Translations under genes and position numbers: made by a program | Shown: positions 8,858-64,000 of the stretch, piece by piece | Layout of the letters: every line of letters starts with the position of its first letter | Numbering within the stretch: the stretch's first letter is position 1 | Source: Ulota crispa | Taxonomy: Eukaryota > Streptophyta > Bryopsida > Orthotrichales > Orthotrichaceae | Direction: 5' to 3' | Assembly: GCA_963920765.1 (NCBI GenBank) | Contig: OY987242.1 | Span: forward strand, 25,692,002-25,756,001 | DNA: 64,000 nucleotides | The notes under the pieces: generated by a model | What the model was told of the DNA's origin: nothing | What the model saw: only the letters and a program-made list of their open reading frames with translations | The model's database searches: none

Positions 8858-9738
8858 TTAACCCTTGAACGTCTGAGTGTGCCGTTGCAACTAGTAGAAT
8901 ACAAAGTGTTTTTTTTGTATTTGGAATAGATTCACGCCTTTACTACATTTGAGATTAACAAAGAAGTTGAAGAATATATCAAAGCGATTCTAGTGAGTTA
9001 TGTGAGATCCAAAATTAAAACTTCTTATTGGTAGCAAATGTCAATTATATGGCAATGTATTTACTATACCATATGATTATTTAAGAGTTAAATTTCAAAA
9101 AAAGGACACCATTGTACAATACCAAAATAGAAGGAAAATATTACTCTTACCATGGTTTGTAAAAATAACGGGATTTTGCCTCTCCAGTCCCACCATACTG
9201 CATTCCATCTAACCCCATCAGCATTCAGCCCCCTGCCCTGCCCCTGCCAACCCTCACTTTTTCCGTTTCATCCCCATAGCTGTTTTTTTCCCCTTTGGTT
9301 GGCTTCCGGTGGGTGCACCTAAAAGTGCCATTCCCATCGCACCCTTTTGCACACTCTGTTTCAAACTCATTGTCATGTATTGGTGGCATACATTCTGAAA
9401 CACAAATGTGTACATAAGGATGGAATTAGTAAATGGATGGTATAAAAATTAACACTTGAAAATGTTGCTCCTCATGGTAAACAAACTGGTTAATCTCTAA
9501 GCGCCTGGGCAACAATATAATGTCGCTCAAAAAGCTGGGTCAACTCAATTTTGACTGTTATAATTTCATTGCACGTCCGGTGAAACGATTTTCAATCAAG
9601 CCCAGCATGATGGAGACTCTTTCCATTAACAATTCATATGGTCGGATCTTGTGGATTGTATTTTTCATTCCACAAGGGCACTTTGATTGCACACAAGTCA
9701 TGCTTCTTTTGTTTCAACTCTGGACGCTCAGGGGTTAA
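8858..9738. mobile_element. TTAA-bounded element, long form
   Basis: Left terminus TTAACCCTTGAACGTC and right terminus GACGCTCAGGGGTTAA are inverted repeats with TTAA at both outer edges. The first 230 bp match the short elements at 56233-56466 and 22644-22885, so this is a longer member or one with an internal insertion. No transposase is visible. Confidence 0.7.
9362..9500. repeat. Dispersed direct repeat, copy 1
   Basis: A block running from TTTCAAACTCATTGTCATG to a GTAAACAAACT motif recurs in the same orientation at about 10870-11015, with shared words such as GTGGCATAC, ACACAAATGT and CTAAATGGAT. A weaker third copy starts near 11064. Confidence 0.55.
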
Positions 9739-10695
9739 CTCTAAAAGGCCCAAACCCTTTTTTGCATGAAAGCTACTAAAAACTGCCTCTTCTGGGGGAA
9801 TGAGTAGAAAAGAGGGAAAAGAGTTTTTTTTGGAAATCCAACCATAGGATCTTGCCTCAGACTATGGGAGGTACAAGCGAGAAAAAAACTAGTTCATTCT
9901 AGAAGTAAATGAGTGAGGTATTGACATTTGAAGTGAAAAAACAAAATTCCTTAATGCCCAAAAATTTCAAACGCCTTTGACTGCTCCTACATAGAAAAAA
10001 TGATGTACGCAAAGTTGAGGTTTATTTTTCCCATGTAGGAGACCAAGTTAGGTATGTGTGAGAGAATTTTCAAATGAATTGGAGGCGTAAAACATACTTT
10101 GTAAAATCTTGCCATGCCAGAAGGTCATGAAATTTGCATATATACTAGGCAAAATTGAATCCTTTATGTTAAACTCATAAATTTGAATTACAATGATCCA
10201 AATGGCAAAAACAAAGGGTTCTTAGCTTACTACAACTTGGGATAAAAACAAATCTAAAAAGAAATACTCAATCCGCTCAAAAAATCAAAGCACCAAATTT
10301 TACAACGGGCAAAAGGAATGGAGGTTTGGGAGTCCCATACCTACAGGCAAACTGAAACTTCTCACTCATCAATCAAAATTGGATGATTCAAAGCTTTCCA
10401 AATGTATAAAAATCTAAAGAACCAATTTCAGAATTTTATTTATTTTCAAATGTAATTTTTTAAAAGTTTTTTGGGATGCTCAAATTGCTTGCCCTCCCCT
10501 ATTTTACAGAAATTCATGGATAACTTCTTCAATAAATGTTGGAATGAAGAATTAATTAAATGCTCGCGTAGGTCTTGGAATTCCCTACCTTCAATAAAAG
10601 TTTCAAAAAATTACACAAACTAGTTTAATTATTAATAGGTACTTGCCCAAAATCCATTTGTCCCCTGAGGGCACAATTGAACCTTTAGGGGTTAA
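9735..10695. mobile_element. TTAA-bounded element abutting the previous one
   Basis: Left terminus TTAACTCTAAAAGG and right terminus CCTTTAGGGGTTAA are inverted repeats. The right half matches the element at 63328-64000 in reverse orientation, including the block around ATTTTGGGCAAGTACC. It shares its left TTAA with the right TTAA of the 8858-9738 element. No coding capacity seen. Confidence 0.65.
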
Positions 10696-13600
10696 GATAG
10701 GAAGAATTAAAAACGACCATGTTCTAAATGTATTACCTATATAGGAACAAGTGACATGTTCCTCTAGGTATATATTACTGTCATTAATGAGTTGGGTAGA
10801 CTTAAATGGTTGATTTATGGACCTCCTACCACACCCCGTTTCCACCTCATCCATTGATACATTCTTGTTAACACTCGATTTCATCATCATGTGTTAGTGG
10901 CATACGCTCTAAAACACAAATGTAAATTATTTATACATGAGAGCGGAATCACTAAATGGATATTGTAAAATACCAACATTTAATAATGCTGCTCCTGATA
11001 GTAAACAAACTCAGTATCCCATTTACTCCATTTCCTCTACACCGTTGGCACGTTCCAACCAGCACTAAATTTCATTGTCATGAATTGCTGGCTTACATTC
11101 TAATTACAATTGTAAATTAGCTAAGTTCTCAAAAAAGAATTATGACTACAGTATAAAGGTAGGAACTATGAGATGCAAACTTAGAAAAATACTTGAAAAT
11201 GAGAAATGCTAAATACTGGTTTATGAAACTTAGAAATCTTCCCAAATAATAAGTAGAGTAACGGATAGTTCATTCACAAACAATTTCAAAAAAGCAAGAT
11301 AGTAAAAATGGAAAATTATTGATTGCAATTGTTGTATAGAGTAAAACTAAGTGGTGATTACGTTGAGACTTTGGCAGAATTCAACATTTGCAAGTGAAAG
11401 AAACTTGAAAAGATTAAAATATTGCATACAAGTGTTGTTTGCATCAAACTGATGGACAATTTTTTGAAAATTTGTAGCCATTTGTAGGTTAATTAGCATC
11501 GGAGCAATTGAAGAAAAATGCTTGATTTCTTTGTTTGAAATGACATTTAAACTTCTGAATTCTTTATTTGAAACGACAGTCAACTTAAAGATATTTCTTA
11601 GAGTAGCAATAAATCCTTGTTTTGCACCTCGATTAATTATTCGCTTCGACGTAGAGGAATAAGTATTTGATTGGGTAATGGATATATTTATTTCTAGCTA
11701 ATAATTACTTTAGACTGAACCTAATTCTAAGATTGTTGCATTCTTTAAAAAAAACTCATTGTAATTACTTGCTCATTTCACAAATTTAATAGAAATAAAT
11801 TATATTTGCCTTATGGCACTTATATTGCAAAAGAGAAAAGGAAAGATGGAGAGGGTAGAAAAAGAGAATAGAGTTGCATTGCACAAATTTAATAAGTTTT
11901 TGAAAAAGACATACAAATATACCAAGTTGGTTTTTGTGTGCATCTTGGTGGTGTTCAAACTTTAGAGTTTGTTTTTTATTTTAGTCCACTTTGTTAGTTT
12001 TGAAGTTGGTTTTTCCATGACATTTTTATTTAATATCTCGAGTTGGATAATCTAAATGTGCTACTATACCTAATTGTGCATTATAATAACATCTTGTTGA
12101 TTTAAAACCCAAAGCACTTGTATTCAATATATTTAGCCTCTAATAAGGTGTCTTTTGTTTTAACCTTGATGGATATTTATCTACATAAATCACATTTAAG
12201 TTAATTGCAAGAGAACTAAATAAAACCAACACTTGAGAAGGGAGTAATTTTTTTATATTTATACTTTTACTTGTTTTGTTAAGTTTTTGTTATTAAAAAA
12301 AAGGCTACAAGAAACATTTACATGAGAAACTTAGAAGGCCATGGAATGAAACTGCATACTAGATTTTTGCAAAGTTATAAGGACTTGCATCATTTTTACA
12401 AAAAGTTTAAAGAAAAATATCTGAAAATTAGGAACATGTTAGAAATCATTATGCAATTATTACTTTCAGAAATGCATGTGGGGATGAAACTCTATGAAAA
12501 TGGACCCAATATTCAATCCAATCTCAAATTGAAAAAGAAACAAATGGCATAAAATTCTTGCAATTATTTAGTACCTTGTGCATGCATTTACAAGTATAGA
12601 ACAATACAATTACTTCTATCCACATATATTGAGTAGCATACAACTTATTTTTAGTAGGATTTGAACACAAAAGATATAAAAAACAAAAGGCTTCTTATAT
12701 ACTTTTTACTAAAATTATTTATTATAGATGATGAAACCCTTGTAAGTTTTGAATGAAGTTGTTATATGTACTGGTTTTAATCTCTTTTAGTACATACATA
12801 AGCAACAAGTTTTTCAGTTATTAAAATCAAGAGTGAGTTCTTTGCTTGGTTTTTTGTACACATTTGATATTTGCTCTTTATCTTTTAATAAAATTTAATG
12901 AATCTAGATAAATATATGGATCATGTCAACCATAAAATCTAACACCAAATTTTGTTTGAATGTAGACTATTTTTATAAACATTTGATGAACATTTTGTAT
13001 AGCATGTGTAGCTAAGGAAATGACATATCATTTCCATTTGTTTGCAAAATTTAGAATATATGGACTTTCAACTAATGTATTATTGTTTTCCAACAAAAAC
13101 GTATTTTGGAATCAAATAATGTTTTGTTGATATAGTGATTATGTATATTTGGATGGATGAAGCATTAGTGTCATTACCCAAAAACCAAAGGAGTAAAAAT
13201 GACATAACATAATTATATGTCAACAAGCATCAATTTAAATAAACCACAAAAAACTGAATGTCTTAAAAGAGTGTCACAAGCACTTATACAATCAATTGGT
13301 ATAGTCCGCAATGTCACATTGTATACATTGGTCAAATCATTCCATGGCAACAGCTACAATGGCCATACTCATGAATTATCCTAATAAATTGTGATCATAC
13401 CATAATCAATTGCAACAACTTTTTACAAGTTGTTGATCATACATTACTTTAGTATTCATCATGAAAAATTAATCTAACATTCACATCACCAAAAATCACG
13501 TTTCAACACATGGAAATGTCTTATTTCAAAACCTCAAGTTCTTTTGGATGTTTCAATTCTTGATGATTTGATTGAATGATATTAGCTATAAAAAATAGAA

Positions 13601-14150: not shown

Positions 14151-14271
14151 TAGTGGTGACGCAAAACCTCTTTCTCATTTGAACACTCAAAGAATCCAAC
14201 AATGGCAATGCTAACATCCACATTTCTAGCAAATGGGATGGAGAATGGTTCATGACAAACCAAAAAGGCCC

Positions 14272-14589
14272 TAAGGTAGGAGCACCCATAAGCGTCAGTG
14301 TCCCCATAACCATCACTTCTGAAATTTTGAAAAATCTGTGGAAGTGAATAGATGTAATGACAAGAATATATAACATGTGAACATGAATTCTTAAAAGTGG
14401 TTATGGGTGCAATGGCAGTTTGCTCTTTAAAAATTCATAACTTATTCTTATAATATCCAAATAATGCATTTGAAAATGCAAACTTATTATTTTTCTGTTC
14501 CTAATAAGATCCTATAATTTGCTAGCTGCTTATTGATACTCATCATGTTCAAAACCCTTAGTTTGACGTTTATGGGTGCTCCTATCTTA
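14272..14589. mobile_element. MITE family B, copy 2
   Basis: The left terminus TAAGGTAGGAGCACCCATAA and the right terminus TTATGGGTGCTCCTATCTTA are nearly perfect inverted repeats. The internal sequence matches copy 1 closely. It again lies just downstream of a family A copy. Confidence 0.8.
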
Positions 14590-14639
14590 TAACCGTTCGA
14601 TTTTCTTTTTGAAGTTTAAATTTAAACCTACCATTAGCC

Positions 14640-22643: not shown

Positions 22644-22885
22644 TTAACCCTTAAAGGACCAAGCTACTATAATACATACTATGTATGTTGCTATGCAACT
22701 AGCGTTTGCTATCAACAAAAAGTTTTAATTTGGGATCTTGACTACCTCACTAGAACAACATTGATCTATATTCTAACTTCTTTGTTGATCTCAAATATAA
22801 TAAAGGTGTGGATGCACTCCAAATACAAGAAAAATACTCCATATTATACAAGTCGCAAAGGGCTGCTCGGTCGTTCAAGGGTTAA
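22644..22885. mobile_element. TTAA-bounded MITE, short form, reverse orientation
   Basis: Left terminus TTAACCCTTAAAGGACC and right terminus GGTCGTTCAAGGGTTAA are inverted repeats, TTAA at both ends. The internal sequence is the reverse complement of the elements at 56233-56466 and 8858 onward (for example GACTACCTCACTAG against the GTGAGCTAC block). Confidence 0.8.
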
Positions 22886-23512: not shown

Positions 23513-23579
23513 GTAAGTTTACACGACACTCTCCTCCATCTCTCTCTTTCGTAATTTCGCATTCAGGTAGATTCTGCTG

Positions 23580-25320
23580 TTTTCTTTTTTCTTTTTTCTG
23601 TTGCATGGTTTCTTGAATTAGCGAAAGAGTTTCTTGTGGACCACGTAACGTTGCTGTTGTTTCTGGCGTTGAGAAAAGAAGCGAGCAGGCCAAGACCAGG
23701 CCACGATTGGACTTCTTAGCAAAAACATCCGGGATTGTGTGTTTTTACGCTGTATGCATTGGCATGATTACAGAGTATGTCTTTAGTATTTGTCGTGAGA
23801 ATCTGCTATTCTGCATCCGTGTAGTTTTTTGACAAATGCGGAATCGACCGTGCTATGGCTCTTGTATTCGTGGTTTCGAATTCAGGTTCAGATTCTGGTA
23901 TTTTTGATTTTCTTCTGTTACATGATTTCACGAATTAGCGAACGAGTTTGGTCTTGTGGACCACGTAACGTTGCTGTTGTTTTTGGCGGTGAGCAGGCCA
24001 AGACCAGGCCACGATTGGACTTCTTAGCATAAATATCCGGTACATTGGCAAAATTACAGAGTATGTCTTTTCGGAATGCGATTTAGTATTTGTCGTGAAA
24101 AGCTGCTACTCTGCATCCGTGTAGTCTGTTGACAAAAGCGGAATCGACCGTGCTATGGCGCTTGTAATCGTGGTTTCGTGATTAGACTTTTTAGCAAAAA
24201 TATCCGGGATTTTATGTTTTTACGCTGTATGCATTGGCATAAAATTATAGAGTACGTCTTTTTGGAATGGGATTTAGTATTTGTCGTGAAAATCTGCTAC
24301 CTTGCATCCGTGTAGTCTGTTGACAAAAGCGGAATCGACCGTGCTATGGCGCTTGTAATCGTGGTTTCGTGATTAGACTTTTTAGCAAAAATATCCGGGA
24401 TTTTATGTTTTTACGCTGTATGCATTGGCATAAAATTATAGAGTACGTCTTTTTGGAATGGGATTTAGTATTTGTCGTGAAAATCTGCTACCTTGCATCC
24501 GTGTAGTCTGTTGACAAAGGCGGAATTGACCGTGCTATGGCGCTATTATTCGTGGTTTCGAATTCAGGTTCAGATTCTGGTGTTTTTTTTTTTTCTGTTG
24601 CATGAATTCGTGAAGTAGCGAAAGAGTTTGGTCTTGTGGACCACGTGACGTTATTGTTGTTTTTGGCGGTGACAAAAAGAAGCGACCAGGCCAATACCAG
24701 GCCGTGATTGGACTTTTGAGCACAAACATCCGGGATCGTATGTGTATGCATTGGCATAATTATAGAGTACGTCATTTTGGAAGGGAATTTGGTATTAGTC
24801 GTGAAAATCTGCTACTCTGCATCCGTGAGTCTGTTGCTAAAAGCGGAGTTGACCGTGCGATGGCGCTTGTAGTCATAATTGCGTATGTTGATGATATTTT
24901 AAGGAATTCGTAGGGTTTGGAGCGTGGTAAGTGAGATAGTTATAACTACCGGAGTGTTTTGATTCTTTTGGAAGACGTGGAGACGATGAATTTTCTTCAT
25001 GGAGTGCTTGAGGCTCGTATAATTTTTTTCATTCGTAAATTGTGCTGCTGTGGATCATGTGCCGTCGTTGGCGGTGAGAGAAGTGATTATGCCAAGATCA
25101 AGCCACGATTGGACTCATTAAACAACACATTCGGGATATTGTGCTTTTATGCTGAATGCATTTGGATGGTAAAATTATCGAACACGTCTTTTTGGAAGCG
25201 GATTTGGTATTTGTCTTGAAAATCTGCTACTCTGCGTCCGCGAGTCTGTTGAGAAAGAGAAAAATCGACCTTGCTATGGTGCACTTGTAGTCTTGGTTGA
25301 GAATGTTGGCAAGGTTTAAG
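23580..25320 (+). repeat. Tandem-repeat array in the first intron of the transporter gene
   Basis: About six degenerate copies carry the anchor GCGGAATCGACCGTGCTATG or a close variant, at roughly 23838, 24138, 24330, 24521, 24842 and 25260. Two adjacent units, 24112-24302 and 24303-24493, are 191 bp each and look identical by eye. Other units are longer and diverged. Several contain the block GGACCACGTAACGTTG or GGACCACGTGACGTTA. The array lies wholly inside the intron between 23513 and 25799. Confidence 0.85.
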
Positions 25321-25858
25321 GAATTTGTAGGGCTTGAAGCGCGGTAAGTGACAAAGTTATATTTCTCGGGTTCTTTCGTCTTTTTTAGATGTGGATTGAA
25401 TTTTCTTCCCCGGAGTGCTTGAGGCTTTAATATACTTTTATGAATTGTACTGTACAGTGTTCGTGAGGGATTTTATGATTCGATTTATTGAATCTTTTTT
25501 CTGTCCAAAGGAAATGGATAGTGAATTGTCGTGTGCAAAGGATCGGGGCAGCAGTAGAAGTGTAGCGAAGCGGGATACGGGACCTTTTTGCATTGGAACA
25601 CAATGCTGTGTAAATTTTTTTTCGAATTTTTTCCAGAATGTTTTTGGCAGTTTTTAGCTTCATGTATCGACATTATTTGCAGGGAGATGTCGTACTTTTT
25701 TGGTTTATTAATTAGTTTGCCTTGAACGATTGCGAGAAGGTATTCAGAAAAGCGGAATTGAGAGAGCATCTAACTGATTTTATGTATTTGGTGGTGCAGG
25801 GAGCGGAAGCCCTAGGTACAGCCTGAAGGATTGTACAAGGCGGGAGTTCCACGAATTG

Positions 25859-25972: not shown

Positions 25973-28900
25973 ATGGGCCAGGAATTCAAGTCCGAGTATG
26001 TGGACAAGGAGGGAGCCATCTATCAGCAATCAGCACCCCGCGCCATAATCAGTCCAAATGCTCCTGTTTCCCCCTGCTCCTCCTCATCCTTCAATGCTTC
26101 GCCTCACTGGCCACAGAGTTTTGAACGCTCCATGGGAGTCTACTCTCGTTCTTTGTCCCGACGGCGCCGGTCCCTCCGAGCCGAGAGCATCACCAACGGT
26201 CTGGAACCGAGTGTGAGTGATCAGTTCGCCGCTGCGGTGGAAAGAGCAGAAGATTTGAGGGTGCCGCTGCTTAAAGACTCCGGACGCTTGGATTTAGAAA
26301 AGGCTTATGGCGATAGTGGAGACCACGATTCTAGAAAACTGCAGACGAAAGCATCCGGGCTTCCTGACGATGAGGAGGAGGAGGAGCATGAGCACGGAAG
26401 CTCTTTTCTTCAGGCTTCATTTAATGGAATGAATATCCTTGCTGGTAACCATTCTTCTATTTCGATTTCTGACATTGATTTACGGACTAATTATGTGATT
26501 ATAGATTTTTTTAATGTCCATGAACATTTGGAAATCTTCCAATGTTTTGGTTGTGTTTATGTTTTGTAAGTATTTTACAATAATATGCAATCAAAGCGGT
26601 TTTTGTATGATGACTTATGAACTTTGTATGATTTATAAATAGTTTGATATGGCATCAAGGAAAGATGGGAATATTCTTTTATGCGTTTAGGCAAATTTTA
26701 ACATGGCTCCACGGCCAATGTTTGTGCTCAGTACATGGAAGATATGAACTTGCGCTTGAAGTAGTCAGACCGCTGGATTTTGCCTTTCATCATATGAATC
26801 AAACGTAGTTGATACCATTTGCATTACTTTAAGCAAATTGAACCCAAATTTTGGAGTGTGCTGTTTGGAAGATCAGTGTAGAGCGTTGAAAATCTCCCCA
26901 TCACCTGGTGTACAAGACCCGAATCTATTGAAATCTTTGTTTTCATCTCTATGTATGAATTCTTGTACAATTTCAAAGTGGGAGGTTGTAGATGATTATA
27001 AATGACGGTAGAGCTCAATTTTGATGCTGTTCGTGGGAGTGTGGTTCTTATTTCCTTTGACGGTATGTGCAGGTGTGGGAATTTTGTCAACTCCTTATGC
27101 AGCTGCTAAAGGAGGCTGGCTAGGCTTAGGTCTGCTCTTACTGTTTGCAATCGTTATGTGCTACACGGGAATTCTTCTCCGTCGGTGTTTGGATTCTAGC
27201 CCATTCATCAGCAGCTTCCCTGACATTGGAGAGGCTTCATTCGGCAAGTGGGGGCGGTGGATCATCTCCATCATGTTGTATTTGGAGCTGTACGCTGTTT
27301 CCATCGAGTTTCTGATCCTGGCAGGCGATAATCTGGCCCGGCTTTTTCCGAATCTCAGCTTCACCTTCCTTGAACCCCAGCAAGCCTTCACTGTATGTGC
27401 TGCCTTGTGCATGTTGCCTACGGTGTGGCTCCGAGAGCTCCGGGTTTTGTCTTATGTCTCCGCTGGGGGAGTCTTTGCGTCGCTGTTGATAGTGCTGGCG
27501 GTCGGTTGGATTGGAGCGGTGGATGGTGTTGGGTTTCACCACCGGGGCTCCCTGGTGCATTTGGAAGGCCTGCCTGTGGCTATTGGCCTCTATTCTTTCT
27601 GCTACTGTGGCCACTCGGTTTTTCCAAGTATATACAGCTCCATGCAAGACCGCAAACAATTTTCATCTGTAAGTGATGCAACTCTGTCCACCTCTCTCAC
27701 TCTCTTGCAACGATAAGGCAACAGCACCACTTTAAGTAACTGACCTTGAAATTAGAGTTCTTAAGGTAACTTGTTTTGTCAAACTATTTAGCATCAGTTT
27801 ATCAATAGCATAACACAAGTCTATGCCCTTTAATATTTGATAATGGATTTGAGATACATTCTTATAGTTTTTGAGTGGTTTAGGTAGGTTTATTACAATG
27901 CTTTTTCTAACACACAAAGACAGTTAATAATAGTTTGTTTAAAAAACAAGTCGGTAGAATGCGGGCCTTTGTACCCAAGAATTTCACATCACTATAGCAT
28001 GTATTGTTTGGACATATTATGCACAGGTTATGATCTTTTTTTGTTTTCTTTGGTTGTCAGGGTGATGAAATTTATGGGTAGGGTTTGACTCGGTAGCCGT
28101 TGTACATTTCCATATTCACTTAATTGCCTGATAGCTTGGCCATCAAATATGCTCTAGAATACATCCTGAGGATATATTCTGACGACCATGATTGTTGCTT
28201 TAGAATGTACACAAAGGGTGCATTTTGGCCACGAAAGGTACATGTCCAGTCTACAGCCGCCTACCTTACCCACACCAAGAAGCTCTATAAGTAAGGGTTC
28301 CTGGATAACTGTTGCCCAGGTGACATCGTCCTTGACATGGATACCTTGGGGTACGTATTCTCCATAGGACACACACAAGGTGTCTTCTGAGTAGCACTCT
28401 TACTCATACAAGGAAGTTTGAGCTGGTTGCTACTAAAAATCTGAGCAGTTACTGTGACAGAGCCTCTTGTAGCATAGTTGTTAGTTTCTCCCACGTTCAT
28501 GTACAAAATAATCAATTGAGCCGTGTAATAGCAAGTCGGTTATCAGAAAAATTAGCTGCGTCTTATCTCAACTTAATCCTTAGCTGTGGATCTCTGCTTG
28601 GGGATCTATCGTCTTAGGACGCATGCAGATCTTGTGATTTTCACCTGATCGTTGTGGCGTATAACATTTGAGCTCATATTCAATTAGATCATGGCAATTC
28701 AAGCGATTGCTTCAACGATACGGACCTCACGTGCCATTCGTGTTCTTTTTGTTGGGGTGCAGGTGTTGGTCATCTGTTTTGCTCTGTGCACCTTCATGTA
28801 CGGAGGGATAGCCGTGATGGGGTACACAATGTTCGGCGACGAGCTGCAATCCCAGATCACGCTGAATCTGCCGAGGGATCTCCCAGCGTCGACGTTTGCC

Positions 28901-29290
28901 GTGTGGATCACCCTGATCAGCCCTCTGGCCAAGTACGCGCTCACGCTGATGCCTTTGGCAGTGGCCATGGAGGAATTTCTGCCGCACCCCTGGACGAGCT
29001 CTCACAAGGGCATCGTGGTGAGAGGTTGCATTCTCAGAACTTGCCTGGTTGCCAGCACCTTGGTTGTGGCCCTGGCTGTTCCCTTCTTTGGCCTTCTCAT
29101 GGCCTTCATCGGCTCGTTTCTCAGCGTGGCTGTGTCCGTCCACGTTCCTTGCATTTGTTACTTGAGAATATTCTGGGGCCAGTTGTCGAGATTAGAGATG
29201 GTTTTGATTGTGTTGATCGTTTGTATTGGATTTTTGGCTGGAGGTGTTGGCACATTCTACTCCGTGAAAGAAATTCTTGAAACTTCTTGA
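25973..29290 (+). CDS. AVT1-like vacuolar amino-acid transporter (AAAP family), 531 aa
   Basis: Coding exons are 25973-26444, 27073-27668 and 28763-29290, with GT-AG introns and continuous phase. The protein starts MGQEFKSEYV, followed by a Ser/Arg-rich cytosolic N-terminus of about 155 residues that includes an acidic DDEEEEEHEHG run. The membrane domain opens with NGMNILAGVGILSTPYA, the signature of the plant AVT1 branch of the amino acid/auxin permease family. About ten or eleven hydrophobic segments follow, with YCGHSVFPSIYSSMQD near residue 340 and GYTMFGDE early in the last exon. AVT1-type carriers exchange neutral amino acids for protons across the vacuolar membrane. That substrate and location are family knowledge, not seen here. 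The start is the first ATG in the long open frame. Two upstream ORFs and a repeat-filled first intron precede it. The length is typical for the family. Confidence 0.9.
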
Positions 29291-34735: not shown

Positions 34736-35210
34736 GTAAGTTCCACATACTATCCGTCCTGTTCATTCACCTCTCAAACTAACCTCTAAGATTTTGCATT
34801 TTGTTGCACAAAATTAGCAAAGTCTAGACGCTTAATGTGCGCTGCAGTACCGGATCCAAAATCTATTCAGGAGATGTATTGAAGTTCTTATTCTCATGTT
34901 TATTTTCTTATGATGTGAGCTCTGCGAGCTTTCTTGCACGGCTTCTAGGATTTCTAAGATTTTACATTTTACTTTAAAGTATAAGCAAATCTAGACAAGT
35001 GCTGTGCGGTGTAGTAAGTCGATTCAAAAGATGGGTTTAGTTTTTTTATTCTCGTATGTTCGAATTGGCTTAGCCTTACAATGTGAGCTCTTCACTTGAA
35101 ATCAGAGTAAAGCTTAAGCTGCGCGTTGTCGACTTGCACGATTTCTTAGGGTTTCTGATAATCATGTTTGATGTTGCTAGCTAGCAACTGCTTTGGAACG
35201 GATTTGATTG

Positions 35211-35587
35211 AAGGTAGCAGCGCCCATAACCGTCAAATTAAGGGTTTTGAACATGATAATTATTAATAAACATCTAGCAAATTATAGGATCCTATTAGGA
35301 AAAGAAAGATGATGAATTTGCACTTTTGAATGTATTATTTGGATACTGTGAGAATAAGTTGTGAAATTTTAAAGAGCGGACTGCACTTGCAAATAATACC
35401 AACACTAAGGTTGGTATCATGTTCACATGTTGTACATCATTGTAATTACACCTATTCACTTCCACAGATTTTTCAAAATTTTAGAGGTGATGGTTATGGG
35501 GGTTCGAATCCCTTTCCATCAGTAAGTAGGGTAATTAGTTAACCTTTTTTAAAACAAAATAGTGATGGTTATGGGTGTTGCTACCTT
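35211..35587. mobile_element. MITE family B, copy 3, inside a leader intron of the PSS gene
   Basis: Left terminus AAGGTAGCAGCGCCCATAAC and right terminus TTATGGGTGTTGCTACCTT are inverted repeats. It lies in the intron between leader exons 1 and 2. It is longer than the other copies because of a 61-bp insertion plus duplication at 35501-35575. Confidence 0.85.
35501..35561 (+). mobile_element. tRNA-like 3' fragment inserted into the MITE with a 14-bp target duplication
   Basis: GTGATGGTTATGGG occurs at 35487-35500 and again at 35562-35575. The 61 bp between are absent from the other family B copies. The insert opens GGTTCGAATCCCTTTCCATC, which looks like a tRNA T-arm and 3' acceptor strand. 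It ends in a T-run then AAAACAAAATA. This fits retroposition of a tRNA-end or SINE fragment. No full tRNA gene is present. Confidence 0.65.
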
Positions 35588-37178: not shown

Positions 37179-37321
37179 TGATATTTTAGAGTTACGAGGC
37201 TTTGTTGACGGCCAGACGGCAGCTTAACATTTGTGCTCTGTTGATTCTAGAAAGCTTATAGACAATGATTTGGAGTCGGATCTCTTAAATTTTAGTTCTT
37301 CTTTGAATATTAGGGCGAGGA

Positions 37322-47603: not shown

Positions 47604-48584
47604 TTAACCCTTCATTGCTGGAGGGGACAGAAAGTGTCCTCTTACTCTCTGCGTGTGTAATTCAAATTGTTGTAACTTTTGCATTGGTAGTCCAAATTCA
47701 ACAATTTCTCTAGATAAAGTTGCACATACAAATCTGTATTCTATGGAAAAAATTTCAGAACAACCTAAGATGTATTAAGTTTGTGAAAGCCATTCAAAGT
47801 TCACATGTTCAATTTGAGTTCACCACATTGCATTGTAATGGCTGCAACTTTGGGGACTTGTATCTTTTTCATCAAATATGTTTTTTCAATAAAATTTGTT
47901 GGATTTTGTTCCCCTTGAATTCTAATAATATTGGTAGAAGTTTCATGTCAATCCAAGTTGTTTTGAATGTTTGGGAGCAACTCAAATTTCAAAATCCACA
48001 CACTTTTTCATTATTGTGAACTTTGGTGGCTAGTAACTTCTTCATATAACTTCCATTTTTGATCCTTTATATATTGAAAGTTGCGCATGTTAGTCTAGTT
48101 GCTTTGGCTAAAATTTCATTTCAATCCAAGAAGTTAGGAGTGAATGAGAAGCATTCTAGTAGAGGGAGGATTGGCAATAGATGTGAATTTTTGCTACTTT
48201 TTTCACTATTTTTTGACATATCAAAACAATTTTGCAAACATAATGAGTCTATTAAGTTAATTTTTTTTCACCAATGTGTATGTATACTAGTTTCATATCA
48301 CCTTTTAATTTAAGTTTTTTTCATTTGAGCAAGTTTAGAAATCAACACTCACCTCCAAATGTGTTTTTTAGAAAATTTTAGCATCTTTTTTTAACACTAA
48401 AACATTATAATCTTTCAATCTATGTGGTCAAATGATCTTAAATTTGATCTACATGATTTGCAACAAGCACACTAAAAGATTGTACGATTGAGATTTTCAT
48501 AATTTATAAACATTTAGACTTACAGCAAATTGAATTGCAAAGAGAATGTTAAGGGTCTTTGAACCTCAGGCGATGAGGAGTTAA
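47604..48584. mobile_element. TTAA-bounded element, 981 bp
   Basis: The left end TTAACCCTTCATTGCTGGAG and the right end CTCAGGCGATGAGGAGTTAA are imperfect inverted repeats, with TTAA at both outer edges. Its right part shares an ATTATAATCTTTCAA block with the nested element at 31689-32295. Open frames inside do not resemble a transposase. Confidence 0.6.
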
Positions 48585-49314: not shown

Positions 49315-50248
49315 TTAACCCTTTAGTGCGCGGTTAACCATTTTTGGGTTGATTTTGGTACTCCGTGGTTTTTGTCATCTTTGTTCTATTTAATTTGCAA
49401 ACACACAAAACGTAATAGAGTTGGGGGTTTAGTTTGTGTTCCTACTAAAACAAATTTCAAAGCAAGGCATAAACAAACATGGTAGTTATGCGTGTTTTAC
49501 ATATGAAGTTGGGAATCTCATATGGGTGCAACAAATGAAATACTAATTCAGTGCATCTATTATGTGGCCCCAAAGCCCACATATTGCACCCAAAGTATCC
49601 GGCGCTAACTCTCTAGTAGTTGCGCATAAGATGCATGGTTTATTTAGATGTTCTACTTGTGGCGTATTTTAGCTACAACATTGCGTATTTCATGAAATCT
49701 TAGGCTCCAAAGGTTTGCAATGCTAAATGTGGGACCTTGTACCTCAAATAACACCCAATGTAGACGATATTGACCAATCAGATTTTGTGAAAACATGTTC
49801 CATGCATGATGTATTCAACTGCATATGAGTGGCCATGTTTATATTCTTCTAATGCTCAATTTCATAAATCATGCTATGAAATGCATAGATTGATTCGAAT
49901 TTTGAATTTTTTTATAGAAGTGTAGTAATTTAGAATGGGGCAATAGCCTCTACAAATTTCACTACCATCAAAAGTTTCAATAGCACAATTGACACTAATT
50001 AGTTAAAGTGTTTCACGTTTTTGCACAACAAGTTTTTTTGGATCATCAAATTTCTCACAATCCTCATGTGAAATTGTTCCAATAGATCAACCTTTTTTTA
50101 TATATTCATGTTGCCAAAATTTATAATTTTGATATGTCCTATCCAATTTAATTTTAGAAACACAGATTTTATCCTTGGATGTGTTTTGCAGACCGTATAG
50201 TGAAAATTTGAGATGCCCTCAAATGATTGACGGGCACTAAAAGGTTAA
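49315..50248. mobile_element. TTAA-bounded element, 934 bp
   Basis: The left end TTAACCCTTTAGTGCGCGG and the right end CGGGCACTAAAAGGTTAA are inverted repeats over about 15 bp, with TTAA outermost. The interior shows no open frame of note. Confidence 0.7.
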
Positions 50249-51237
50249 CCGCTAACCATGATACTTTTAGCACAGTTGAAATTCTGTCATAAATGCACAT
50301 GATTGTGAGTGTTAAATCACAACATTTTTATTTATTAGGTTTCCATACAGGAAATAAAGCAGATAAAAGAGCCTCAATAGTGTACTTCCGTATTTATTCA
50401 TAGTCACAATTTATGCATTCAAAACGCTAATGTCTATACAAAAATATATAGTATTATTTAAGCAAATACAACATGTTCGCAATGCTTATAAAAATTGTCT
50501 AAAATTATATATTTACAATCATTGTGGACATGATATGAAAACACTTTTTTACAGATGTTATAATAATAAAATATTGCATATAAAAATGACATTATAAAAG
50601 AGCTTGAAGTCAAAAAAAATTCAAAAAGGGAAACTTTGTAGACAACTTCTTGTGCTATTGTAAAGAGAGTTTTGTATAAGAGCATCTTCATTGGTGCCTC
50701 CAACATGCTCTGTGAGCAAGGCTGGGGTTACTATTCATGCTCTATATCTCCACTGGTCACTTGCCTCACTCAAATTCTAAAGAAGAGTCATCAAATGAGT
50801 GTTCGGGGACGGTGACCTCCTGAGACATCCTTCTTTTGTAGCAAGCTAAATTTTTGGGTTATTCCAAGCTTACATCTATTTCTAAACCCCATTGACGCAA
50901 GATTCTATCCAGATTGGATGCCTTTACAATTGACCTGGCTTTTGAATTGCGTACTTGCATGGCAAAGAATTAATTGTTAGTTGAAGAGAGCTCGCCCAAA
51001 TAACTTGTCGCTTGTTTCCAAGAATATTGTGACACGTCTATGCTAGCATCAACTAGTGGAGAAATTGTGGTTTGCCCGAAGAAACCCCGCAAGGGCCACA
51101 CCAAACAGCTACGGTGAGTCTCAAATCCTCCGGACCAGTGGAGGGGACCAGTGGAGATGCCCTCAAGGGAAGTGTTTTTGGCGGACGGTGCGATATTAAG
51201 GAGGTAACGGCGCAGTCAGACGCGCTCAACTGCGCCA
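50249..51237. other. Intergenic DNA and CP12 upstream region
   Basis: AT-rich up to about 50690, then GC-richer toward the CP12 gene. I see no other gene. A TCAAGGGA/CCAGTGGAG cluster near 51130-51170 contains a small direct repeat (ACCAGTGGAG twice). Confidence 0.4.
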
Positions 51238-51300
51238 CCAATCGTCCCGTGTGAACAGGGTGGACGCACCAGAGCCAAGAGAAATGGGCTCCGGATAAGG
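51238..51300 (+). promoter_or_regulatory. Candidate CP12 promoter elements: CCAAT and I-box
   Basis: A CCAAT pentamer lies at 51238-51242 and GATAAGG at 51294-51300, about 280 bp before the start codon. GATAAG I-boxes are common in light-regulated photosynthesis genes, which fits CP12. No clear TATA box is visible between here and the ATG. Both are short matches and could be chance. Confidence 0.35.
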
Positions 51301-51580
51301 GCATCCATCCAAATTTTCCAACCCTGCCCGCCATCCTCCACAGCTCGCTTTGCTTCTGCTTCGCCCGCTTCTTCTTCGTCGTCCACCTCTAAACTCAAAA
51401 GGGGATCGATCCTTCTCGCGCAGATTCTTGTGATCCCTCGCAACCGCAGGCTCACGAGCTCCACTCCATTCCCTGCTACAAGTACCGCAAATCACCTCTC
51501 CAATTCGAGCATTTTTTATCTTTTCATTTCGCACTTCGCTGTTATTCTTTGTTAAGATTCTGCGTTGAGACTTTGTTGCA

Positions 51581-54335
51581 ATGGCTGCTGTTACCATGGC
51601 TGCGCCTTCGTTGGCGATGTTTGTCGCCGCTCCTTTGAACGCGTCGGCTTCGTACTCCACGTTCTCCAGCGTCCGGATGACCGCGCCTTTGAGCATCAAT
51701 CGGCGTCTCTCCATTGTGGCCATGGCGCAGAACGAGACCAAGAAAGGTGACTTGAATGAGAAGGTACGATATTCGCTTTTGCATGTTGTGTATGACTTTT
51801 TGAACTTCGTGAGTGATCTTGATGAGGTTTCTGTAATAGAATTCCGACTTGCATGTGTCTGGCGTGTGCTGTGAATTCGAGAAAACGATAAGTCGTCGTT
51901 ACAGAGAGCTATGGAGATTTGAGCTGAATGATATGCTCTGTGCTGCGAACTGCACGTAAATCCACAGCTCTCAAGATTTTCTTGCGCTATTCGCGAACGC
52001 CAAAACATGCTGTTTCTGGTTGTGTATGAGTGTTTCAAACTTCGTGAGTGATCTTGATGAGGTTTTTGTAAGTTTTTCTCGACTTGCATGTGTCCGGCGT
52101 ATCATATGAATTCGAGAAAATGATTAGTCGTCGTTATGGAGAGCTATGGAGGGTTGAGCTGAAGGATATGCTCTGTGCTGCGAACTGCACGTAAATCCAC
52201 AGCTCTCAAGATTTTCATTTGTATTTGCGAACGCCAAATCATGCTGTTTCTGGTTGTGTAGGATCATGTTAAACTTTTTGAGTGATCTTGATGAGGTTTC
52301 TGTAAAAGAATTCCGACTTGTATGTGTCTGGCGTATCCTGTGAATTCGAGAGAACGATAAGTCGTCGTTACGGAGAGCTATGGAGACTTGAGGTGAAGGA
52401 TATGCTCTGTGCTGCGAACTGCACGTACATCCACAGCTTTCAAGATTTTCTTGCGCTATTTGCAAACGCCAAAATATGCTATTTCTGGTTGTGTAGGATT
52501 GTGTGAAACTTCGTGCGAGATCTTGATGAGGTTTTTGTAAGTTCTTCCCGACTGGCATGTGTCCGGCGTATTATGCGATTTCGAGAAAATGATACGTCGT
52601 CGTTGCTGATGTTGTACGAGCTATGGGGACTTGAGCTGAAGGATATGCTCTGTGCTGCGAACTGCACGTACATCCACAGCTTTCAGGATTTTCTTGCGCT
52701 ATTTGCAAACGCCAAAATATGCTATTTCTGGTTGTGTAGGATTGTGTGAAACTTCGTGCGAGATCTTGATGAAGTTTTTGTAAGTTTTTCCGGATTTGCA
52801 TGTGTTCGGCGCATTATGTGAATTCGAGAAAAGGATACATCGTCGTTGCGGACTTTGTACGAGCTATGGAGGCTTGAGTGGAAAGGATATGCCCTGCGCT
52901 GAGAATTGCACGGAAATCCACAGCTCTCAAGATTTTCTTGCATTATTCGCGAACGCCAAAATATGCTATTTCTGGTTGTGTATGATTATTTGAAACTTCG
53001 TGAGAGATCTTGATGAGGTTTTTATAAGTTCTTCCCGACTTGCATGTGTCCGGCGTATTATGCGATTTCGAGAAAATGATACGTCGTCGTTGCTGATGTT
53101 GTACGAGCTATGGGGACTTGAGCTGAAGGATAATTATGCTCTTTGCTGAGAAATAGATCCACATCTCTCAAGATTCTCTTGCGCTATTCGCGAACGCCGA
53201 GACATGCTGTTTCTGGATATCATGAAAATACTGACGTATCAGGAAGTGCTATGTCATGCGTAAGTTACGTATTGATGTGCGTTCAAGATGAGGTCCTTGC
53301 TTTTCAAAGGCATAGGCCTAATATTCCAACATGCGGCCTTCCTTAGGCTACTCTTGTTTAATTGTGTTGTGATACGAACAAACTTGTGAGTGGTGTAAAT
53401 GACGGTTTCCCGTGGTGTATTCCTTCAAAGATCCTCAAGATCTTGACGTTTTCATTATCATTAGATGCTGTTTTCTGCATAGAAGTAATGGTGCGCCTTC
53501 ATTATTGCTTTGCTATATGGATCATAGAGTCCTGCCGACAGTTACGCTATGTGCTGTGCTTTCCATTTTATATCAGAATCGTGCTTTGTCTTCGTGCTGT
53601 ACGCAGTTTCTAAAATTGTCTTTCTTTAGATTGTATGAAGTTACTGTAGCACCAAGAATTGCAACTTTATATTCGAGTACGCTCAGGTTATTTTGAAGAT
53701 CTGAATGGATTTGGTGCTGTCAGTGTTAACTTTTGTCTAGATAAATTCTCTGTCCTCATTTTTATCCTGTATTGAAGGCTTTGGAGATGATTTAGAATCT
53801 CTTCTTTGCACTGCCGATTCGTGGAATTTTTCCATCCTAGGATGAATCTATGCCGAACATGATTACTGGGAGCTGCGTCCTCTATATGTAGTTAATGTTG
53901 TCATGGAATCGAGAAATACTGAAGAACGTTTGTCAAGTATTGGCTCCTCTTTTAAATGGCATACATGTATCATGTTGTTTCTAACTGACAAAATCCTATC
54001 AGATTATCTCGAATTCAGGATTATGATTCTAGAGAGAGTTTCCTTTTGACTTCGAGAAAATGATCGAATTTCGACTGGACGTTTTGAAGCACTAGTTTGA
54101 TGATGTGAATAATTCAAAATTTGTTTTTCTGCAGATCTCTGAAGCCATTGCCTACGCTCAGAAGGCTTGTGAAGATGACCCGACTTCCGCTCCTTGTGCC
54201 GTATCATGGGACGATGTTGAGGAGCTCTCCGCAGCGGCTGCTCACCAGAAGGCCTCAAAGAAATCAAGCGACCCTTTGGAAGAGTATTGTGCTGAAAACC
54301 CCGAGACTGACGAGTGCCGTGTCTACGAGGACTAG
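51581..54335 (+). CDS. CP12: Chloroplast CP12, Calvin-cycle linker protein, 127 aa
   Basis: Two coding exons, 51581-51763 and 54135-54335, are joined in phase 0 (GAGAAG to ATCTCTGAAG) by GT-AG sites. Residues 1 to about 48 are Ser/Ala/Arg-rich with few acids and end near RRLSIVAMA, a typical plastid transit peptide. The mature part has both redox Cys pairs, C73-C82 (CEDDPTSAPC) and C113-C122 (CAENPETDEC). It also has the core SWDDVEELSAA, where most family members have AWDEVEEL, and the C-terminal SDPLEEYC. CP12 is an intrinsically disordered stromal protein that, when oxidised, binds GAPDH and phosphoribulokinase and shuts the Calvin cycle in the dark. The start is the first of two in-frame ATGs. 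The second, six codons on, is possible. The 2.37 kb intron is largely a tandem-repeat array. Length and motifs are standard. Confidence 0.95.
51790..53220 (+). repeat. Tandem-repeat array in the CP12 intron, about six copies of 235-244 bp
   Basis: The anchor GCATGTGTCCGGCGTAT or a near variant recurs at about 51851, 52086, 52320, 52555, 52798 and 53042, giving spacings of about 234-244 bp. Each unit also carries GATCTTGATGAGGTTT, ATATGCTCTGTGCTGCGAAC and TCAAGATTTTCTTGCGCTAT, with small differences. The array starts just after the donor at 51764 and ends well before the acceptor at 54134. Open frames on both strands inside it are by-products of the repeats. Confidence 0.9.
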
Positions 54336-56232: not shown

Positions 56233-56466
56233 TTAACCCCTCAAGGACTAAGCGTGCCATTGTGACCAATACAATATGGGGTATTTTTCTTGTATTTGGA
56301 ATGAATCCTCACCTCTACTACATTTGAGATTAACAATGAAGTTGGAGAATAGATTAAAGCGGTTCCAGTGAGCTACTTGAGATCCCAAATTAAAACTTCT
56401 TACTAGTAGCAAATATTGATTATACGGCAGCGTATATACTATGCCCTATAGTCCTTTAAGGGTTAA
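56233..56466. mobile_element. TTAA-bounded MITE, short form
   Basis: The termini TTAACCCCTCAAGGACTA and TAGTCCTTTAAGGGTTAA are inverted repeats with two mismatches, TTAA outermost. Internal sequence matches 22644-22885 (reversed) and 8858 onward. Confidence 0.85.
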
Positions 56467-56919: not shown

Positions 56920-57257
56920 GATTCTACAAGGAATATGGAGAATATCACTAGAAGAAAAACAAGGATAAATGACTGCGACAAATTGCCACGACTAGGTCAC
57001 AATAATTGCATTACAACTGCAAGGTGATTGCAAGAAAGACCCTCAAGTAGATCACTTTTTGTATGTTTGGGTACCCCACGTGTGGCGAGGGGGTAATTTT
57101 TAGGGGGCTAATTACTTCCTAGGCAAGAATAATAAGACCTCTATAATTATATAATTTGAAAATTGGCCTATTTTAGGGTACTCTATAATTAATTATATAG
57201 GTTTAGAGATACCATTTTTTACTAGGCTATTTTATTTATAAAGGAAAAAATAAATTC

Positions 57258-57503
57258 TTAACCCCTAAAGGATGTTACCTACCAAAAGTGTTGTCTATAT
57301 TCATAAAAAGATCATTTAGTACTTGAAAAAATGGTTATATGACAATTGTCAAAAATTCTCCAAAAAATCCTAGCTTATCATAAAAATGTTTATGACTAGT
57401 TTAAAATTTACAACTCCAATGGGATTTATGTGTTACCCAGATACCCCATCTGTATACAACACAAGAGAGAGTACACAATACATCAACATCCTTTAGGGGT
57501 TAA
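57258..57503. mobile_element. TTAA-bounded MITE nested in the CACTA element
   Basis: The termini TTAACCCCTAAAGGATGTT and AACATCCTTTAGGGGTTAA are a 19-bp inverted repeat without mismatch as I read it, with TTAA outermost. It is 246 bp long and has no coding capacity. Confidence 0.85.
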
Positions 57504-57802
57504 GGAAAGTGATGAGATGAAAGGGAGAGCGTATTCTAACTAAAAAATACAATGGAATAAGAATATTTCTCAACCCGAAGAATTCACAAGCAACTACACA
57601 CAAAAGCAAATCATGTGAAAGGACTTCATGTATTAGATTTGAAAGGAAGACAATTCATAATCACTTGAAGAACAAAGAGCTTGAGCCCTAGCATCAATTG
57701 TTTATCTCCATAATCAACTTCAATTGCAACTTCAAGGGCATAGTGAACGTCTTATTAGATAGGGATTTAGGATGAGCCTCAAAAGTCCATACTAAATACA
57801 GC

Positions 57803-59689: not shown

Positions 59690-60051
59690 TGCCTGGTTGG
59701 TCATTTTGATTGCTCTTGTACAATACCTCTATAGTAATTTAAAATGATGTGACAAGTGCCCACCCATTATGATATTGTTTCCAAAAATTGCAAAAATCAA
59801 TAATGCACACTGCCCTCATAAAAATTACTCGAGGGGTAACATAAGACTTAACACTACATTGGTGAATCTTCTCACAATTTGGGTTACCTAGAAATATAAA
59901 TGCATTTGGAGAGATTGTTTCTAGCCATCCATGATGGACTATGTGTTTATGATCACTTTTGAAAAGAAGAAGATAAAAATCAACTTAACTTCCATCTTTT
60001 AGAGATTAATTTTGTTATGCAAGGATAAAAAAAAGTCCTCTTAGGGGTTAA
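59690..60051. mobile_element. Partial TTAA-bounded element
   Basis: The right end CCTCTTAGGGGTTAA and the interior (CTTCTCACAATTTGG, CCATGATGGA, TGTTTATGATCACTTTTG) match the right half of the 31324-32660 element. The left half is missing or too diverged to place. Confidence 0.65.
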
Positions 60052-60453
60052 AACTTCCAACCTTGATTAATTGAGAAGTGTTTACATGGTTATGTTTCTT
60101 GCAAGTTTGATTTCAAGAAGGGGAAACCTAAAACCTAAATAATAAATTTGGGTTGAATAGAAATAGAGATTAAACTTGGAGGATAAATTCCATCAACTTT
60201 TATGCTTCACTTGTTCGGAACTTTCTTTGGTTAATCATTTTGCTTTCTCAACTCAACAATGTTGAGAAGTCATGTTCAGGTGGCACTTGCAAATTTGAAA
60301 TACGAAACATGGAACACAATGTAAAATGCCTCTTGGTTAAATTTCACTTGCACACGCAATATTCTTTCAATAATTTTGAGTCTCCACACATCGCTGCACA
60401 GATGCGCTTGCGGCAACGTGCAAAATAGCAGCACGTTCTGTCCATAAATTTCA

Positions 60454-60765
60454 GGGAAAATTTCATGGATACCCCTGAAGTTTGCCATGTTTTCATAGAT
60501 ACCCCTGCTTTTTCAGAATTATCACAAAAATCCTTGGATCAAAAAATTTAGGCAATTGTTTTGTTATGCATGTCACTTCCTTCTTCCTTTGTGTGTATAT
60601 TACTTCTTTCTTGTTATGTGTGCGTACAAAGAAAGAAGGGAAGTAGCATGCACAACAAAACAAACACTTAATTTTTTTGGTCCAAGGGTATTTGTGATAT
60701 TTCTGCAAAAGCAGGGGTATCTATGAATATATGGCAAACTTCAAGGGTATCCATGGAATTTTCCC
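60454..60765. mobile_element. Mutator-type foldback MITE, second copy
   Basis: The arms start GGGAAAATTTCATGGATACC and fold back over nearly all of the 312 bp. The 9-bp flanks TAAATTTCA and TAAATTTTA differ at one position. The interior matches the copy in PSS intron 9. Confidence 0.85.
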
Positions 60766-61710
60766 TAAATTTTACTCCAAGATTGCACCTAGTGTGTTTG
60801 GAATGCTGGCGGACAATGCATTTAGGGAGCATAAAATGATGAGCCTATGAGTAGTGAGCTAAGATTTTGTGAGCAAGAACCAATTTTGAGCTCAAAATTA
60901 ATGGAAAAACTTTTAAAATAGCAAGTTTCTAAAGAAATGAATGTTTAGAATGCAAAATTGTAAGGTCTTTTGTACATATTTATACGTGAAATCAAATGTT
61001 TTTGATGAAAAATCTAGGTTCATAGCTCAAGGCTCATGAATCCGTGCTCACTATTTAGTATTCCCCCTCTATACATCATGGTTGTCATATTGGACAAATT
61101 GCCATCCACCCCATATGCTCAATTGAGCTCTTGTTTACCTAATGAAGTCAAACCATAATTGATTTCAAAAAATGGTAAATTTTTTTTCTTTATACATGAT
61201 GGTTACACACATGATTGCTAACATGAAATTGTGTCATAAATTTTAAGCCATGTCACTTAGTAAGGATAAAAAACAATAATTTTATCCTTCCTTTTTTAGG
61301 TCAAAAACCCTACAAAGACAACATTGAATAGACACACTTGCCTATGCTATGTGGACCACGTGTCCGCCTGTCTTGTCCAATGGCAAATCTTGCCCAAAGT
61401 AACGACCATGAATCATGGTAGGATGTGCCTTTCACTGCCTATGAGGCAGTGACCTCTAGCACCAACAATTCAACAAGCAAGATTTGGGAGCAATGTTACA
61501 TGTGGAATCAACAATGGCAGTAGTGCCGAATATGTTTGCAAGTGGCTTGGGAGCAAGAATAGAGTTGATTCCTTTTGGCAATTTGTCACTCAAGCACCCA
61601 GCCCTTGCTTCACAGCCTCAACGCCATAGTGGCTAGAATGTCATCTTCTAAGGTGACTCTTGATGCTAGGCTCTTATACTTATTCGAAAAATTGCAATTC
61701 TTTTGGTAGT
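60766..61710. other. Intergenic DNA
   Basis: No gene recognised. The stretch at 61360-61680 is less AT-rich but has no convincing open frame. Confidence 0.4.
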
Positions 61711-62841: not shown

Positions 62842-63246
62842 GGGGAAATTACAAATGGTGGCATGAAAACAAAAAATATTACAAACAAGGGCGCAGTTTC
62901 AAAATAATTAAAAATAGAGGCACAATTTCAAAAAAATTGTAAAATTTTGTAAATTTTTTTAGTTTGGACATTGGTTGATTTAGAAACATCACATTAAATG
63001 TTATCTAACTTTCAAAAAACTCAAAGGTCTCTCCAAATCAAGTCTAAATAAAGAAATTTTAGTAAAGGAAAGACAATTTTTGGAGAGACCTTTCAATCTT
63101 TTGGAAGTTAGCTAACATTTAATGTGATGTTACTAAATCAACCAATGTCCAAACCAAAAAAATGTACAAAAATGTACATTCTTTTTTTGGAACTATGCCC
63201 CTATTTGTAATTATTTTGAAATTGTGCCCCTATTTGTAATTTCCCC
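62842..63246. mobile_element. Foldback element, about 405 bp
   Basis: The left end GGGGAAATTACAAATGG pairs with the right end CTATTTGTAATTTCCCC. The arms continue inward, with AAAGGTCTCTCCAAA against TTTGGAGAGACCTTT. No clear target duplication. No coding capacity. Confidence 0.8.
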
Positions 63247-63327
63247 TATTTTTTTAGTAGTTTAGAAGAGTTTGTGTGTGAATTATAGTTTAGTTCTTGA
63301 AATAAATTTATTACAAACAATGGATCT

Positions 63328-64000
63328 TAACCCCTAAAGGACTAAGGGCCCTTTAGGGGGACAAATGGGATTTTGGGCATGTACCTATGGCTAAACTACT
63401 TTGTGTGATTTTTTGAAACTTTTTTGAAGGTGAGAAATTCAAAGATCTACGTGGGAAATGTAATTTATTCTTCATTTTGACATTTATTGAAGAAGTTAAA
63501 AATGAATTTCTAGAAAATGATGCTCCCCAGGCAGCCAAAAAATTCTTTAAAAATTTCATTTTTTTCTAATAAAATCAAAAATAGGTTCTTTAGACTTATA
63601 TAGATGTGGGGAACTTTGAATCATTCAATTTTGATAAATGAGATGAAATTTATGAGATGTTTTAGTTTGGGGGTAGGTGTGGAAAATCTCAAAACTATGC
63701 CTGCACGCAAACTAAAACTTCTCATAACTTTCATCTCATTTTTCAAAATTGAATGATTCAAAGCTCCCCACATCTTTATAAGTCTAAAGAACCTATTTCT
63801 GATTTTATTAGAAAAAAATGAAATTTTTAAAGAATTTTTTGGCTGCCCGGGGAGCATCATTTTCTAGAAATTCATTTTTAACTTCTCCAATAAATGTCAA
63901 AATGAAGAAAAAATTACATTTCCCACGTAGATTTTTGAATTTTTCACCTTCAATAAAAGTTTCAAATTATCACACAAAGTAGTTTAGCCATAGGTACATG
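63328..64000. mobile_element. Palindromic TTAA-bounded element cut by the window edge
   Basis: The left terminus is TTAACCCCTAAAGGACTA. The interior is a palindrome of roughly 310-bp arms centred near 63685. TGTACCTATGGCTAAACTAC near 63380 is answered by TAGTTTAGCCATAGGTACAT at the window end. The right terminus is outside. The 9735-10695 element shares its left arm. Confidence 0.8.

Follow-up and report, generated by a model that had tools for sequence, protein, structure and literature searches.

The closest described system is piggyBac (IFP2) of Trichoplusia ni, an element of ~2.4 kb that targets TTAA, carries short terminal inverted repeats (TIRs) starting with CCC, encodes a DDD (three-aspartate) transposase of the PF13843 type with a C-terminal cysteine-rich domain, and has two ends that differ internally (PMC7351741, PMC2874221). 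The T. ni structure shows symmetrical binding over the first 16 bp of the end and, at bp 17-33 of one end, a palindrome to which the cysteine-rich domains bind (PMC7351741). Short TTAA elements accompanying autonomous piggyBac have been described as piggyBac-type miniature inverted-repeat transposable elements (MITEs) in coral genomes and as mPok of Daphnia (PMC2872659, PMC4912750). Plant relatives of piggyBac were already mentioned in a 2010 review (PMC2874221), and in the fern Ceratopteris 1,230 piggyBac fragments have been annotated, representing 0.00% of the assembly (PMC6890710). The present analysis concerns a stretch of 64,000 nt of the Ulota crispa genome (274.8 Mb, 157 contigs) at C1:25692002-25756001, hereafter the window, which contains many short elements bounded by TTAACCC and its complement. 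These elements are very probably non-autonomous, MITE-like members of the piggyBac superfamily residing in a streptophyte plant.

Central to this assignment are transposase-coding elements with ends of the same type. A genome-wide profile search for the piggyBac transposase domain (PF13843), in which introns were ignored, listed at least 120 matches, all above the curated cut-off, with a best E of 1.3e-73 (116 of 528 candidates scored); no match occurred in 14 control genomes. Eight loci, picked for high score or few stops, were fetched, and four of them were extended upstream. Convergent paired ends of the TTAACCC type surround PF13843 in three of the eight fetched loci, which are three of the four extended ones (J33, J35 and J31). 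The first-pass annotation had proposed a search for a long member encoding a DDE (Asp-Asp-Glu) transposase; these three transposase-coding elements all lie outside the window. J33 has relatives on C10 (90%) and C8 (89%), and in all four end regions of these copies homology stops at the TTAA position, with nothing matching beyond; the left end of the C10 copy reads TTCA, and at another end one base runs on. A 408-bp element outside the window has the two ends of J31 as its two best matches (39 bp at 87% and 41 bp at 83%).

The encoded protein carries the expected signatures. The frame of locus L030 matches the T. ni piggyBac transposase (6x67) at 4e-20 and piggyBat (9c0f) at 6e-17. The first aspartate motif is present in all eight fetched loci, and the second and third were read by eye in the frames; three catalytic aspartates are found in seven loci, L030 having Asn at the third position. 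A Cys/His-rich C-terminal tail pattern occurs in four of the eight (L029, L033, L034 and L035). By its sequence, this is a piggyBac-type enzyme, and most listed copies look broken. Stops lie inside 110 of the 120 listed matches, leaving ten without, and current activity is therefore doubtful; given the intron-blind search, some of these stops may be intronic. The ten uninterrupted matches and the possibly intronic stops are what one would cite for an alternative in which the host has domesticated the transposase genes and another activity mobilizes the short elements. Against this stand the 110 interrupted matches and the dispersed copies of J33 with their TIRs, so that the transposase loci behave as transposons, and domestication is a very improbable explanation.

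The elements of the window are clearly more than a recurrent motif. TTAACCC has 23 matches in the window, compared with a shuffle mean of 8.7 and a count as high in 0 of 100 shuffles, and TTAACCCYT has 19 matches forming 10 convergent pairs 100-1500 bp apart, compared with means of 1.5 matches and 0.01 pairs in 200 shuffles. At the genome level, the exact tip TTAACCCYTNARNGNC is found 39,965 times (19,983 + 19,982 by strand) and the reversed pattern 26 times (12 + 14), which would correspond, as a rough estimate and assuming a pair of such ends per element, to ~20,000 elements. Within a local sample of 264 kb (the window and its surroundings), a looser end form yields 71 ends, and pair sizes are mainly 230-370 and 600-1,000 bp (the pairs listed agree at 11 or more of 16 TIR positions and include overlapping alternatives). 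Forty-five intervals listed by hand, partial copies among them, account for 28,141 of the 264,000 bases (10.7%) and for 7,142 of the 64,000 bases of the window (11.2%). The tips start with CCC and CCCYTNARNGNC is found at both ends, in agreement with the CCC start and length of ~13 bp of piggyBac TIRs.

Homology edges provide a second line of evidence, obtained with a genome similarity search that scores only ~40 candidates per query. In the three window elements queried together with their flanks, the match to other copies sets in and breaks off at the TTAAs or close to them. With element 49315-50248 and 100-bp flanks as query (element at 101-1034; 40 of 209 candidates scored), every one of the 39 other copies listed has its start at 89-105 and its end at 1026-1041. 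With 57258-57503 and 80-bp flanks (element at 81-326), the match begins at 63-90 and stops at 321-340 in 28 rows (40 of 1,296 scored); one copy is cut at 252, and 11 further listed copies match the whole query, because the element there sits inside a second repeat that carried it. This second repeat occupies 57178-57583 of the window; its 11 other listed copies that carry the element along are 89-95% identical, and the host repeat therefore multiplied after the insertion. For 32292-32660, queried with flanks as a 481-bp sequence (element at 13-381; 40 of 3,613 scored), the match begins at 13-15 and stops at 380-382 in 23 of the 41 other rows. Element 47604-48584 was queried unflanked: of the 40 other rows, 17 span precisely positions 1-981, with 78-90% identity (40 of 346 scored), eight others begin at 62 and reach 979-981, and others begin at 113, so that this query reveals full-length copies and a related form with a different left part, the outer edge not being delimited.

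These data bear on the possibility that a common short motif has been paired by chance and that the pairs are not elements. TTAACCC alone is indeed common (47,126 matches in the genome versus 32,572 for the reversed motif), and two of the nine pairs initially proposed were mispaired. The shuffle tests, the excess of the exact tip over its reversed pattern, the many copies whose homology breaks off at the ends and the existence of places without the element all argue against chance, which the edges refute for the elements queried with flanks; overall, its probability is practically nil.

Comparison within the sample and the genome also led to a revised inventory (Table 1). The first-pass annotation listed nine complete elements bounded by TTAACCC, of which seven stand (9735-10695, 22644-22885, 31689-32295, 47604-48584, 49315-50248, 56233-56466 and 57258-57503); among these seven, 49315-50248 and 57258-57503 had their edges checked genome-wide with flanks, as did 32292-32660. 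The other two were wrong as drawn. Interval 8858-9738 is made of element 8858-9091, whose homology to 56233-56466 stops at 9091, and of a separate end at 9738, perhaps belonging to 9490-9738, a candidate for which no second copy was seen in the 264 kb. Interval 31324-32660, at ~1300 bp the largest element listed, turns out by local comparison to be three elements placed end to end. Of the two elements considered partial, one (59690-60051) belongs to the 369-bp family and has decayed; the other (63327-64051) is palindromic and overruns the window by 51 bp. An element at about 7092-8011 had been overlooked; it is 82% identical over 912 bp to an element in L039 and 81% over 914 bp to one in L040. 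The ends are alike, as first described, but many of the interiors said to differ group into families.

Table 1. Elements of the window (window coordinates), transposase-coding elements outside it and the upstream domain.
Feature	Position or length	Strand	Characteristics
~920-bp element	7092-8011	.	Right end TTAACCTTTTAAGGACC; left end decayed
234-bp element, right end decayed	8858-9091	+	79% over full length to 56233-56466
Weak candidate, 249-bp element	9490-9738	.	TIR 12/16; motif pair only
961-bp element	9735-10695	.	79% copy over positions 10-961
242-bp element	22644-22885	-	Related to 8858-9091 and 56233-56466 over about 180 of 242 bp
369-bp element	31324-31692	+	90% copy over positions 1-362 elsewhere in 264 kb
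607-bp element	31689-32295	+	81-87% copy, two pieces spanning 1-607
Second 369-bp element, left tip decayed	32292-32660	-	Flanked genome query
981-bp element E5, J33-type tips	47604-48584	+	Full-length genome copies
934-bp element E6	49315-50248	+	Flanked genome query
234-bp element	56233-56466	+	Local similarity to 8858-9091
246-bp element E8	57258-57503	+	Flanked query; places without the element point to TTAA duplication
Decayed 369-bp family member	59690-60051	-	Local similarity
725-bp palindromic element	63327-64000, continues to 64051	.	91% self-complementary over whole length
J33	5,027 bp		Ends TTAACCCCTCATCGCC and TTAACCCTTCATTGCC; PF13843 starts 2,525 bp from left end
J35	5,102 bp		Ends TTAACCCTTGACCGCC and TTAACCCTTCACCGCC; PF13843 starts 2,525 bp from left end
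J31	7,089 bp		Paired ends around PF13843
Upstream domain, ~80-95 amino acids	L033:2-310, L035:2-199, L047-L060	+ (L033, L035)	

Evidence on the target site comes from places without the element. An empty form of the repeat that surrounds 57258-57503 is revealed with the joined flanks and one TTAA as query. Among seven empty places fetched, four read TTAA, two TCAA and one TTGA, the last being the copy at C1:28762747-28762992 (81%), which passes straight through both flanks. The TTAA target appears to be duplicated on insertion, as is characteristic of piggyBac. The comparison of filled and empty sites proposed in the first-pass annotation thus shows one TTAA or a variant of it at the places lacking the element, in favour of piggyBac, all of these sites being paralogs. 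A 955-bp element ~61 kb downstream of the window, which lies within an element of the 369-bp family, offers another such site. An 844-bp insert in the element at 218320-220084 (264-kb coordinates) was set aside as an empty-site case, its boundary being without TTAA.

Back-to-back arrays provide further information on insertion. Three junctions of the window have a single TTAA in common: 9735-9738, between element 9735-10695 and the neighbouring end, and 31689-31692 and 32292-32295, on either side of element 31689-32295, which stands between two 369-bp elements. Throughout the genome, 979 sites have a single TTAA bordered by TIRs on both sides, with both tips intact, compared with 0 in the reversed control. 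This is, by a rough and extrapolated estimate, about 2 to 4 times the number expected from independent use of ~1.75 million TTAAs, an enrichment that regional clustering could explain. The arrays find a simple explanation in the insertion of later elements into the TTAA that borders an earlier one.

Duplication of TTAA is common to the piggyBac, Kolobok and Sola3 superfamilies, and the elements might therefore belong to Kolobok or Sola3, their resemblance to the ends of the genome's piggyBac being superficial. This possibility is fed by the commonest families of the window, for which no parent was found, and by the other parent links, which rest on tip similarity. It conflicts with the tips of the same type in PF13843-coding elements (the transposase search was aimed at PF13843, not at Kolobok or Sola) and with the match of the 408-bp element to J31 at both ends over ~40 bp. 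The tips found here are CCCTT and CCCCT, and CCCTT has been described as the best-conserved tip among the TIRs of animal piggyBac (PMC10813416). Altogether, assignment to Kolobok or Sola3 is improbable and deserves little weight. The piggyBac assignment, put forward earlier as an inference beside Sola, is favoured by the PF13843 elements with same-type ends and by the TTAA-like empty sites.

Links between individual window elements and parents were sought by comparing 40 bases of each end with all ends of the 264 kb. The left end of the C8 copy of J33 is closest to the left end of 47604-48584 (31/40), and the right end of the C10 copy is closest to the right end of the same element (25/40, the next being 24); for the right end of J33 itself, 47604-48584 ties with another end at 25/40. 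Descent of 47604-48584 from J33-type parents is suggested by these comparisons, which are mixed. The left end of J31 is identical to the end at 8011 at 29 of 40 positions and to that at 49315 at 28, its best match (31/40) being an element outside the window; the resemblance suggests that 7092-8011 and 49315-50248 derive from J31-type parents.

Several observations weigh against the piggyBac assignment of the window elements or soften the evidence given for it. No paired ends were found in the fetched DNA of L030, L029, L032, L034 and L036. Such ends are very frequent, 66 being present in 264 kb; single ends near transposases therefore prove nothing and were rejected as proof. For three of six J33-type ends, another end of the 264 kb beats 47604-48584, and no parent was identified for the AAAGGACC and AAATGCC families. 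The empty sites are paralogous repeats and not the same locus in another plant. Among those of 57258-57503, only the TTGA copy spans both flanks fully, the other six going a few bases past the junction; paralogs through the site of the 955-bp element read TTAG or TTTG, not TTAA, and one paralog of the joined flanks of 8858-9091 passes through the site reading CTAG. As these paralogs are old, such variants neither exclude nor prove a TTAA at the time of insertion. Finally, the statistic for a palindrome in the bp 17-33 window of the ends (0.515) is below the highest control (0.521), and this likeness to T. ni is weak and suggestive.

As candidates for bounded elements, L029, L032, L034, L036 and J30 were discarded, no end pair being found.

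If the window elements belong to piggyBac, the transposase would bind the TIRs of its own element and those of shortened derivatives. By analogy with T. ni piggyBac, it would excise them via TTAA hairpins, and excision would be seamless. The elements would then reinsert at new TTAA sites, leaving one TTAA on each side of the copy. Each family of the window would have been moved by a piggyBac transposase in this way.

The likeness to T. ni piggyBac concerns the TTAA target and the short TIR starting with CCC, the DDD transposase with its cysteine-rich C-terminus, and the internal difference between the two ends. It may extend to end architecture: several ends consist of a 13-bp TIR followed by 3 bp and then a palindrome, and among 48 clusters with one representative each, bp 25 has the highest value of all palindrome centres tested (0.363; mean 0.271, standard deviation 0.034). 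Unlike the T. ni element, those found here measure 5-7 kb, have the TIR CCCYTNARNGNC, are accompanied by very many short non-coding relatives, and encode, 1.3-4.5 kb upstream of the transposase domain, a conserved domain for which Pfam gives no match.

This upstream domain was recognized as a stretch common to J33, J35 and, weakly, J30 (E 1e-4). A query of 83 amino acids gave 52 genome matches, 29 of which lie upstream of a listed PF13843 match on the same strand at the distance just given; none lies within 7 kb of a listed PF13843 match on the opposite strand, and one is in the wrong order. One more match, at C11:4439092, has a J33-like DNA match 1.5 kb downstream. The other 22 have no listed transposase near them in that order, part of the candidates having been scored. 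Alignments of 12 (A2) and 13 (A3) sequences have the common core WRYLCYRQIAKLLGW. A profile search against PDB returned nothing convincing (best E 0.31), and a comparison of 12 members with Pfam returned only two weak matches, in one member each (E 0.079 and 0.27). The domain is possibly a further DNA- or target-binding module. On sequence grounds, there is an even chance that this is a plant piggyBac lineage whose transposase has an additional conserved N-terminal domain of ~80-95 residues and whose MITE load is exceptionally large, no other plant having been compared.

Coral and Daphnia piggyBac MITEs are likewise short, non-coding and associated with TTAA; here the host is a plant and the families are many. 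Ceratopteris is, like U. crispa, a land plant with piggyBac, but its 0.00% of the assembly and the 10.7% of 264 kb found here were not obtained alike. The initial view that piggyBac would be unusual in plants holds as to scale, but not as to presence, relatives in plants being mentioned in the 2010 review (PMC2874221); given such earlier reports, these are new families within an already known kind. No description of abundant piggyBac MITEs in a plant was found in the literature searched, mostly outside subscription journals, and within the same literature neither the scale nor the extra upstream domain was found described.

Other repeats and genes were noted nearby. Fold-back repeats of ~320-370 bp, 81-90% self-complementary and perhaps of a different MITE-like type, occupy 41990-42330, 60443-60780 and 62878-63240 of the window. 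A family of ~290-320 bp, 81-88% alike, is found at 8436-8728, 14272-14590, 35207-35501 and 36864-37179, with inverted ends TAAGGTAGGAGCACCCATAAGCGTCA in one copy. A tandem repeat with units of ~235-240 bp spans 51785-53216 and overlaps an open frame without Pfam match at 51226-52101 (-). Other tandem repeats at 23548-25426, in the best part with a unit of ~190 bp, lie just ahead of a gene for an amino acid transporter (Aa_trans at 27012-27713 and 28688-29287). Regarding the host, a SAM_LFY domain is present at C4:16275377 (E 1.2e-27), its only PDB relative, at E 0.001, being a LEAFY chain named GinLFY, from Ginkgo; five weaker matches are at C1:33973746, C3:21851572, C10:3335821, C5:13921926 and C2:25193267. 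LFY is not known outside streptophytes, and the strong match points to a streptophyte plant as host.

PiggyBac, a transposon of insect origin, is a standard engineering tool. The share of about 11% in a 264-kb plant sample suggests that its superfamily can flourish in plants. The natural TIR variants found here lend themselves to comparison with transposase structures, the elements constitute a record of insertions, and the extra upstream domain provides a concrete object for testing.

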